Positions 32,293 through 36,494 of a DNA stretch of 64,000 nt are shown here, piece after piece; the first letter of the stretch is position 1; each line of letters starts with the position of its first letter. The notes beneath the pieces are model-generated. The model saw only the letters and a program-made list of their open reading frames with translations. It did no database searches and was not told where the DNA came from. The DNA is from Oceanibaculum nanhaiense. Its GTDB lineage: Bacteria; Pseudomonadota; Alphaproteobacteria; Oceanibaculales; Oceanibaculaceae. The DNA lies in the NCBI RefSeq assembly GCF_002148795.1, contig NZ_MPOB01000002.1:248001-312000 (forward strand). Direction: 5' to 3'. The translations under genes were made by a program, and so were the position numbers.

Positions 32293-33164
32293 GCGATCTG
32301 CCCAGCAGCGACCTTCCGCGCATCGTCCGCACCATCGCCGAGCTGCGCCAGCAGGTCGCCGCCTGGCGCGCCGAGGGGCTGAGCGTGGCGCTGGTGCCGA
32401 CCATGGGCGCGCTGCATGAAGGGCATCTGTCGTTGATGCGGCAGGGCGCGCAGATGTGCGACCGGGTGGTGGCGACGATCTTCGTGAATCCGACGCAGTT
32501 CGCGCCATCCGAGGATCTGGATGCCTATCCGCGCCGCGAGGCGCAGGATGTGGCCGCCCTGCACGCTGCCGGCGTGCCGCTGCTGTTCGCGCCGGGCGTG
32601 CAGGAGATGTACCCGCAGGGCTTCTCCACCACCATCACCGTGGCGGATGTCAGCGAGGGGCTGTGCGGCGGGCGCAGGCCCGGCCATTTCGCCGGGGTGG
32701 CCACCGTGGTGGCCAAGCTGCTGCTGCAGGCGCTGCCCGATGTCGCGATCTTTGGCGAGAAGGATTACCAGCAGCTTCAGGTGATCCGCCGCATGGCGCG
32801 CGATCTCGACATCCCGGTACGCATCGAGGGTGGCGAGACGGTGCGCGAGAAAGACGGGCTCGCCCTGTCCTCTCGCAACGCCTATCTGGAGCCGGAGGAA
32901 CGTGCCATTGCGCCGGCCCTGCACCGCGTGCTGGTCGAGGTCGCCGCGCGCATCGGCCATGGCGCCGCGCCGGCACAGGCGCTGGCGGATGGCATGGCGG
33001 TGCTGGAGAGCGAGGGGTTCGGCCCGGTCGAGTATCTGGAACTGCGCGATGCGGAGACGCTGGCCCCCATCTCCGCCCTGGATCCGGCACCGGGCCGGCC
33101 CGGCCGGCTGCTGGTCGCCGCCTGGCTCGGCAAGACGCGCCTGATCGACAATATCGCGGTATAG
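32289..33164 (+). CDS. panC: Pantothenate synthetase
   Basis: This 291-residue enzyme joins pantoate and beta-alanine using ATP. It shows the ATP-binding [15 protein letters not shown] (about 35-49), [32 protein letters not shown] and the KMSKS-like LSSRNAYL region. It overlaps panB by four bases. An N-terminal extension of about ten residues ([10 protein letters not shown]) precedes the usual start. It forms the panBC unit. Confidence 0.96.
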
Positions 33165-33196
33165 TCGCGGCACATAACAGGAGGGGAGTGGTCAGG

Positions 33197-34435
33197 ATGA
33201 GAGTTGGTATCCGTTGGGGTTTGGTCCTGTTCCTCGCCGCGCTGTTGCCGGCGGTCCTTGTCGGGACGCTCCCCGCCCAGGCGCAGGGGAAGGCCGGCGA
33301 CAAGCCCGCCATCATCTTCGTGCCGGGCTTCATGACCTCGGAAATCAGCGATGGCGGCCGGCGGATCTGGCCGCCGGAGAACGCCGCCAGCGGCGCTGCC
33401 GACTTCAAGCGCATGATCATCGCAGACGGCCCGGCGGCGCCCCGCGACGGGCTGACCGCCAACCGGATCATGCCGGATTACGATAGCTTCGTAACCGCGC
33501 TCGGCGCGCATGGCAGCGTGCATCCCTTCCCCTATGACTGGCGGCAGAGCGTCTTCGACAGTGCCGCCGATCTCGAGCGTTTCATCGAATCGCGGCCGGC
33601 GCTGCGCGATGCCGGGCGCATCGTGCTGGTGGCCCATTCGATGGGCGGGCTGGTCGCCACCGCCTATGCGCAGAACCCGGCAGGGGTCTTCCGGCACAGC
33701 GCGGGGGTGGTGAAGCTCATCACCATGGGCACGCCCTATCTGGGCTCGGTGCAGACCGTGCTGGATGCCCGCAACGGCATCGAGCTGGCGCCCGGCGACA
33801 TCATGCCGTCGCGTGCCTATCAGCAATGGACCAACAGCTTTCCCGGCTTCTACGAGATGCTGCCGGCCTATCTTGACGGGCCGGGCGGGCAGCCCTGCTG
33901 CGTCGATCTGAGTGGCGGCGAAAAGCGTCCGCTGGCGCTGTGGCGCTACGCCGACTGGCGGCGGCTGGACTGGCACGCCGGCACCTACGATCCGGCCGCC
34001 GTGCAGCACACGCTGGGCGATGGCGTTGGCGGTATCCGGCAGGCGGTCGGGCGCTGGCGTCAGGACATGCCGGCCTGGGTGTTCCCGATCGCCGGCCTGA
34101 CCGACTGGAAGGGCGATACCATGAAGACGACCTCGCTCTCTTTCGTCGCAAAGGACGGGCGGCTGTCGGCCGGCAAGGGCGACGAATGCACCAGCGACAC
34201 CGTCATCTGCGCGCCGGGCGACCAGGCGGTGGCGCAGTTCAGCGCCAGCCTGGGCCGGGCCTCGGGCGTGCTGGGCCAGCATGCGGGCAGCTGCTCGGTG
34301 CGCCTGGGCACGGGGCCGGACGGGCCGATCTTCCATGGCGACATCACCGATGATGTGAGCGTCCGCGCCTCGGTGTTCGCCGCGCTGAAGGCGAAGGATC
34401 ATACTGCGCGCTGGTGCCAGCAGGAGCGGAAATAG
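33197..34435 (+). CDS. Exported LCAT-like lipase/acyltransferase, alpha/beta hydrolase
   Basis: This 412-residue secreted or periplasmic protein has a signal peptide (about 1-30, ending PAQAQ). It begins with the VFVPG-type oxyanion strand (IIFVPGFMTSEI) and has the FPYDWRQSV segment typical of lecithin:cholesterol acyltransferase-like enzymes. The nucleophile is probably Ser148 in AHSMGG. Paired cysteines in the C-terminal half suggest disulfides. It probably hydrolyses an ester such as a phospholipid. It follows panC by 32 bases and could be read through, though it is not part of the vitamin pathway. The long open frame upstream is a panC shadow. Confidence 0.8.
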   Translation: MRVGIRWGLVLFLAALLPAVLVGTLPAQAQGKAGDKPAIIFVPGFMTSEISDGGRRIWPPENAASGAADFKRMIIADGPAAPRDGLTANRIMPDYDSFVTALGAHGSVHPFPYDWRQSVFDSAADLERFIESRPALRDAGRIVLVAHSMGGLVATAYAQNPAGVFRHSAGVVKLITMGTPYLGSVQTVLDARNGIELAPGDIMPSRAYQQWTNSFPGFYEMLPAYLDGPGGQPCCVDLSGGEKRPLALWRYADWRRLDWHAGTYDPAAVQHTLGDGVGGIRQAVGRWRQDMPAWVFPIAGLTDWKGDTMKTTSLSFVAKDGRLSAGKGDECTSDTVICAPGDQAVAQFSASLGRASGVLGQHAGSCSVRLGTGPDGPIFHGDITDDVSVRASVFAALKAKDHTARWCQQERK

Positions 34436-34476
34436 GTTTCCTGCTGGCAGGGTTGTCATGCCCTGCCAGCAGGTTT

Positions 34477-34896
34477 TCAGCCTGCGATGCGGAAGGCGAT
34501 GACGGGCAGGTCATCCATCTTAAGCGTTTCCGCCTGTGCTGGTACGGGCCCGCGCTCGAACAGCGCGCGCAGCGCATCCGGCTTGGCTTCGACACCGAGG
34601 ATGATCGCCTGCACGACTGGCCCCTCCTTCAGGACCAGGTGGCCATAGACATAGGGGGCGATCTTCTCGAAGCGGGGATGGCAAGCCGGACTGATATTGT
34701 GCGTCGCGAAGAGCAGTGTCGCCTTGCCGCTCAATTCCGTTCCCTCCACCTCCCAGCTGCCGCAATGCTCGCAGCAACCGGTCGGCGGGAAGGTGTAGCC
34801 GCCGCAGGAATGGCACTTCATCGCGCGGTACGTATTCTGGGCCAGCCCTTCATAATACCAGCGGAGGGCACTCGGCTGTTCGGTGACGTCTTGCAT
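34477..34896 (-). CDS. Zn-ribbon/OB-fold (DUF35) acyl-CoA-binding protein
   Basis: This 139-residue protein has an N-terminal helix, a four-cysteine zinc ribbon (Cys28, Cys31, Cys42, Cys45 in CHSCGG...CCEHCG) and an OB-fold domain (about 50-139). DUF35 proteins bind acyl-CoA and form complexes with thiolase-like enzymes, as in steroid side-chain aldolases or archaeal acetoacetyl-CoA thiolase. Here it follows a thiolase gene by only one base, so the two products most likely form such a complex. Confidence 0.88.
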   Translation of the reverse strand: MQDVTEQPSALRWYYEGLAQNTYRAMKCHSCGGYTFPPTGCCEHCGSWEVEGTELSGKATLLFATHNISPACHPRFEKIAPYVYGHLVLKEGPVVQAIILGVEAKPDALRALFERGPVPAQAETLKMDDLPVIAFRIAG

Positions 34897-36276: not shown

Positions 36277-36318
36277 ATTAGAATATATAAAATTTATGCT
36301 GACATTGATCAGGATCAA
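36277..36318 (-). promoter_or_regulatory. FNR/FixK-type box with class II -10 element
   Basis: TTGAT-CAGG-ATCAA at 36305-36318 (symmetrical, so the same on either strand in its arms) matches the FNR consensus TTGAT-N4-ATCAA exactly. On the minus strand, TCTAAT at 36282-36277 lies where the -10 box of a class II FNR promoter should be if the site is centred at -41.5. That would put the RNA start near 36270, about 83 bases before the thiolase ATG. The surrounding DNA is AT-rich. The site implies oxygen- or redox-linked control of the thiolase/DUF35 operon. Confidence 0.65.
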
Positions 36319-36380
36319 TAAAGGAAGAAATAACAGGGAGAGGTGCTGTAGCGGCTGCGGCGGGGCGTGAAAATAAGAAA

Positions 36381-36410
36381 AGGGGCCAGGCCGGTGTGGC
36401 CTAACCCCTT
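36381..36410 (-). terminator. Rho-independent terminator after tRNA-Lys
   Basis: On the minus strand, GGGGTTAGGCC pairs with GGCCTGGCCCC (one G-T pair) around ACACC, followed by TTTTCTTATTTT. It starts nine bases after the tRNA 3' end. Confidence 0.85.
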
Positions 36411-36418
36411 GTTCTGAT

Positions 36419-36494
<76 letters not shown>

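Follow-up and report, generated by a model that had tools for sequence, protein, structure and literature searches.

A likely class II FNR-type promoter in front of a mobile thiolase/DUF35 operon in Oceanibaculum nanhaiense

Described FNR-type promoters and DUF35-partnered thiolases

FNR-type sites are well-known bacterial switches that normally turn genes on when oxygen runs out. In Azoarcus sp. CIB, AcpR activates the anaerobic benzoate (bzd) promoter PN from position -41.5 (PMC6678401), and in R. sphaeroides FnrL binds at phbC (PMC2908626). The promoter described here, located in a 64-kb window of the O. nanhaiense genome (the whole stretch of DNA that was analysed), resembles bzd PN in that an FNR-family activator is predicted to act from -41.5 on CoA-dependent enzymes used without oxygen. 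It differs in that another enzyme is encoded, with no aromatic pathway around the operon, and in that no BzdR-like substrate-specific repressor was seen nearby. The R. sphaeroides FnrL regulon shares the motif TTGAT-N4-ATCAA, and its known companions hemN, cco accessory genes, usp and fnr also carry sites in O. nanhaiense; the main text of the regulon paper makes no mention of a thiolase, and the nearest metabolic target there is phbC-fabI (PMC2908626). Limited full-text searches, which do not prove absence, returned no earlier report tying FNR to a DUF35 thiolase. The promoter is of a known kind, since FNR-type control of CoA-dependent anaerobic enzymes from -41.5 has precedent in AcpR at bzd and FnrL binds at phbC; its novelty lies in the target, an uncharacterised thiolase/DUF35 pair that is mobile.

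Two enzyme complexes are comparable to this pair. The acetoacetyl-CoA thiolase/DUF35 complex of Methanothermococcus thermolithotrophicus (6esq) has the same fold (Z 44.0, rmsd 2.5, 379 residues) and shares both the Cys/HDC/GH active site and the DUF35 partner with the window enzyme; however, the two are only 23% identical, the window operon has no HMG-CoA synthase gene, and its thiolase scores far under the NCBIfam equivalog cut-off for the archaeal enzyme (120.2 against 600 bits). Benzoylsuccinyl-CoA thiolase BbsAB (7pxp), which serves anaerobic catabolism, is likewise a two-gene DUF35 and thiolase complex with a matching fold (Z 41.1, rmsd 2.4, 368 residues), but identity is 22-23%, the score is 69.4 bits against an equivalog cut-off of 750, and no bbs or bss genes were recognised near the window operon.

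Based on the site, its spacing and conservation, the regulator genes, the intact catalytic residues and the mobility, all read from the sequence, we consider it likely that this is a class II FNR-activated promoter which would switch on a mobile two-gene DUF35-type thiolase operon under low oxygen. When oxygen is low, a dimer of an FNR-type regulator, P0004 being the most likely candidate, would bind TTGATCCTGATCAA at -41.5 and contact RNA polymerase at the -10 element, thereby switching on the operon, an accessory and horizontally moving cassette that would bring an oxygen-responsive promoter with it. Because many distantly related bacteria keep the site in this position, the poorly known enzyme very probably works under oxygen scarcity.

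Table 1 Features of the operon and its upstream region (window coordinates).
Feature	Position	Strand	Basis
DUF35 partner, 139 aa, zinc ribbon zf-ChsH2 + OB fold	34477..34896	-	Pfam
Thiolase, DUF35-partnered (SCP2-type) clade, 427 aa	34898..36181	-	Pfam Thiolase_C_1 and Thiolase_N above cut-off; alignment; structures
Predicted transcription start	36270	-	Position and spacing of the -10 hexamer
Putative -10 hexamer TCTAAT	36277..36282	-	22 nt downstream of operator; sequence and spacing recurring in orthologs
FNR-type operator TTGATCCTGATCAA, palindromic, predicted to be bound	36305..36318	-	Exact match; kept upstream of orthologs
Terminator hairpin of the upstream tRNA-Lys	36380..36410	-	13-pair stem, then T-rich tail
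tRNA-Lys(CTT)	36419..36494	-	ARAGORN and Rfam

Operator, -10 element and their conservation

The operon consists of two minus-strand genes, the thiolase followed by its DUF35 partner. The next minus-strand ORF (32882-34459) matched no Pfam family, and ORF clustering found no conserved third gene in the proteobacterial operons. A terminator hairpin separates the operon from the upstream tRNA-Lys, and the operon must therefore be transcribed from its own promoter. A consensus search of the upstream spacer revealed no sigma-70-type promoter, as would be expected if the promoter is activator-dependent. That the palindrome controls the tRNA-Lys or a plus-strand gene was ruled out, because the nearest gene in the other direction, the tRNA-Lys followed by rodA, is likewise minus-strand, and a separate terminator closes off the tRNA upstream of the site.

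The exact FNR-type site (TTGAT-N4-ATCAA) named in the original prediction is indeed present and is the sole zero-mismatch match within the window, with its centre at -41.5 relative to the predicted start, which is class II FNR geometry. TCTAAT on its own is weak evidence for a -10 box, because the operator region is A+T-rich and TCTAAT is one of several -10-like hexamers there, being outscored in a matrix scan by the nearby TATATT (17 nt) and TAATAT (24 nt). The predicted class II spacing is independently supported by orthologous promoters. With hexamer weights hand-set on the E. coli pattern, the -10-like score across 16 non-redundant promoters peaks at 21/22 nt from the site, which ranks first among 41 spacings, and this peak was not reached in any of 2000 circular shifts, so that the predicted placing of TCTAAT at class II distance, 22 nt from the 14-mer, was likewise upheld.

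To see how widely the site is kept, the thiolase was used to query the genome_contigs collection (84,980 species genomes), which returned 48 loci at 63-91% identity; 39 with enough upstream DNA formed the promoter test set, and eight loci of anaerobic or deep-branching carriers were set aside. Relatives do keep the site upstream of the operon, as the original prediction implied (of 39 loci, 9 exactly, 17 when one mismatch is allowed and 22 when two are), compared with 0.01, 0.31 and 3.1, respectively, in shuffles and at most 0, 2 and 7 for 19 permuted half-site orderings. Among other ORFs in the same loci, only 4 of 336 upstream regions have a site with one mismatch or fewer. In the 16 non-redundant promoters the flanks are unalignable (identity 0.27) and site identity is 0.86, a value partly built in since the loci were chosen by their site, which leaves the counts against shuffles as the clean test. 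Shared descent accounts for some of the conservation, since the cassette moves with its promoter.

Two promoters found after the test also have the site, namely those on Paracoccus ferrooxidans plasmid pFER4 (exact) and in genome G208 (TTGACATGAGTCAA). A Thiomonas-like betaproteobacterial clade retains the 3' half-site alone, followed by a GCAT-type hexamer at 22 nt, and the promoter of the Advenella ortholog has no site. About half of the 39 orthologs are without a good site, although FNR homologs are present in most of those genomes. All searched carrier genomes in which the site deviates by no more than one mismatch encode a P0004 homolog (E ≤6e-25); neither homolog nor site was found in four anaerobic carriers (two Syntrophomonadaceae, Sinanaerobacter and one Anaerolineales), and the other deep-branching carriers have weak family members only and no site.

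Candidate regulators, oxygen regulon and enzyme

A PF00325 search of the genome gave two matches, the better one being P0004 at C7:66,169 (265 aa; gene L005:6098-6895, contig C7), and a second on C19 without an FNR-type recognition motif. P0004 has the features of FNR/FnrN proteins, comprising a C-X2-C-X7-C arrangement in the N-terminal cysteine cluster CNACQVRGLTIC, a fourth, central cysteine (ATVC, in ATVCRF) and an ETTSR recognition helix (IETTSRVF) of the E..SR type. Its cysteine positions are the same in Stella and Rhodospirillales homologs, and close homologs in other carriers have the same cysteines with ETVSR as the recognition helix. P0004 falls below the NCBIfam cut-offs for FnrL (172/300 bits) and Fnr (147/228 bits), and is therefore named FNR-like rather than FnrL. 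An FtrB-like CRP/FNR-family protein at C6:269,975 also has an E..SR motif (E-N-L-S-R). The expectation that the same genome encodes a regulator of the matching class was thus confirmed by the four cysteines and E..SR helix of P0004, but the attribution to 'FNR/FixK' cannot be narrowed to one protein, since a second E..SR family protein is encoded and FNR, FixK and DNR share a motif that does not tell them apart (PMC2908626).

Nine exact TTGAT-N4-ATCAA sites occur in the 3.84-Mb genome, against none for a reversed-pattern control, and 19 sites match the relaxed TTGAY-N4-RTCAA pattern, a few of which are presumably chance given three control matches. Exact sites are located at the FNR-type regulator gene (upstream of P0004 itself), a DsbD-like/FixG (ccoG) pair, a Usp gene and heavy-metal P-type ATPases, and relaxed sites precede hemN, a 931-aa fused NarK, Hsp20 and another Usp. 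These neighbours are those of an oxygen regulon. Two closely similar regions (G000:C8:137278-137291 and C18:2994-3007) each hold a YHS/heavy-metal P-type ATPase with an exact FNR-type site shortly downstream.

As a separate observation, TTGACCTCCGTCAA (G000:C4:142734-142747; L158:2735) lies ~100 nt upstream of a gene for acetoacetyl-CoA reductase (TIGR01829 above cut-off), which comes after a gene ending like phaA. Its half-sites are identical in 4/4 genomes of the genus and the central four bases vary; FNR-type control may reach polyhydroxybutyrate synthesis through this candidate site.

The window enzyme has an adjacent zinc-ribbon/OB-fold DUF35 gene (zinc ribbon above the Pfam cut-off, OB fold just under) and intact catalytic residues, as in DUF35-type thiolase complexes, with Cys96, His325-Asp326-Cys327 (HDC) and Gly374-His375 (GH) invariant in an alignment of 13 homologs. 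The structures closest to the predicted thiolase model (mean pLDDT 77.7, pTM 0.87) are a Pyrococcus thiolase (Z 44.2), the archaeal acetoacetyl-CoA thiolase noted above, PhlABC (~42), BbsAB and Sal aldolase (40.6), with ordinary thiolases further away (Z near 33). Solved relatives of the DUF35 partner are ChsH2, Shy and the DUF35 subunit of the archaeal thiolase.

In several anaerobes (L093-L097, L101, L102) the pair is followed by a phosphotransacetylase gene (pta) and in some by acetate kinase (ackA); L096, L097 and L101 have a divergent AraC-type regulator, and L093 has a second thiolase/DUF35 pair, 40% identical. Both pta and ackA consume acetyl-CoA, and these neighbours therefore suggest that acetyl-CoA is either a product or a substrate of the reaction. 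Most likely, when oxygen is limiting, the enzyme catalyses the formation or the thiolysis of a short beta-keto acyl-CoA, acetyl-CoA being on one side of the reaction. The anaerobic or micro-oxic role put forward in the original prediction thus gains from pta/ackA-linked homologs in strict anaerobes, but describing such control as unexpected was an overstatement, given the precedents for FNR-type control of CoA enzymes.

An alternative to activation by P0004 is that the site is real and is read by another CRP/FNR-family protein with the same specificity (DNR/NnrR- or FixK-like), such that nitric oxide or a two-component oxygen signal, rather than an FNR iron-sulphur cluster directly, would govern the operon. 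We regard this as rather unlikely while giving it some weight, in view of the indistinguishable FNR, FixK and DNR motifs, the best regulator homologs without FNR cysteines in carriers L110 and L117, and the FtrB-like gene, which is ~0.6 kb from a TTGAY-N4-RTCAA site that is also upstream of narK. The membrane-protein gene adjoining the FtrB-like gene is presumably nnrS, with no NCBIfam match. Against this, the four-cysteine P0004 is the strongest match in this genome, and the gene encoding it is itself preceded by an exact site. That the palindrome is instead a chance occurrence in an A+T-rich spacer left by integration beside the tRNA, the operon having an ordinary promoter, is hardly credible: for a genome of 65% GC the spacer has an unusually high A+T content and many -10-like hexamers, but it holds no recognisable sigma-70-type promoter, orthologous promoters contain the site far more often than shuffles or permuted half-sites would give, and a -10-like hexamer sits at class II spacing in these orthologs.

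With regard to the reaction, the enzyme could belong not to the thiolases but to the DUF35-partnered aldolases (Sal/Ltp2 type) or acyltransferases (PhlC type), with some CoA ester as its substrate at low oxygen. The Sal-Shy(DUF35) aldolase is its best PDB sequence match, and the top structural match is no more than a few Z units ahead of PhlC-type acyltransferases and Ltp2/Sal aldolases. This assignment nevertheless appears unlikely, since Cys96, the thiolase nucleophile, is invariant together with the HDC and GH motifs, whereas the nucleophile position is not Cys in the alignment to Sal, the anaerobe relatives adjoin pta and ackA, and Pfam detected no PhlA/HMG-CoA-synthase-like third gene in the operon.

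Mobility of the thiolase/DUF35 cassette

Three other members of the genus lack the operon, the best thiolase matches in their genomes being 28-29% identical, and it occurs in just 2/385 genomes of the class, the source genome included. In the gene tree, near-identical proteins are found across families, joining Rhizobiaceae with the Paracoccus plasmid, and Rhodovibrionaceae with G208, which is placed in another family. This indicates that the pair moves horizontally, together with its promoter, and clearly exemplifies how an accessory metabolic operon can spread along with a promoter that is predicted to be read by a regulator most recipients already possess. The predicted oxygen control also gives a physiological handle on a thiolase/DUF35 subfamily that fits no named family model, as its substrate can be sought in oxygen-free cells.

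More speculatively, this uncharacterised subfamily might travel among Alpha- and Betaproteobacteria as a minimal two-gene FNR-promoter cassette providing an oxygen-gated step that forms acetyl-CoA (or acetoacetyl-CoA) for carbon storage or energy in anoxia, with the same enzyme feeding phosphotransacetylase/acetate kinase in strict anaerobes; we offer this wider scenario as a tentative possibility.

The operon is dispensable, as four orthologs are broken by single stops (L058, L062, L079) or a frameshift (L105), and the upstream FNR site is exact or one mismatch off in the broken L058, L062 and L105. Reading the in-frame stops as selenoprotein codons was ruled out, because they are TAA, TAG or TGA at differing places and L105 is frameshifted.

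In the sibling genome G003, the counterpart of the window tRNA-Lys serves an integrase island as attachment site, a duplicate of the 3' half of the tRNA lying at the far end of the island, and the locus is therefore an integration hotspot. An intact island around the cassette in the window was ruled out, as no second tRNA-Lys end was found. The G003 island (L140:1422-7391) encodes a large P-loop NTPase-like protein that is KAP-like by eye.
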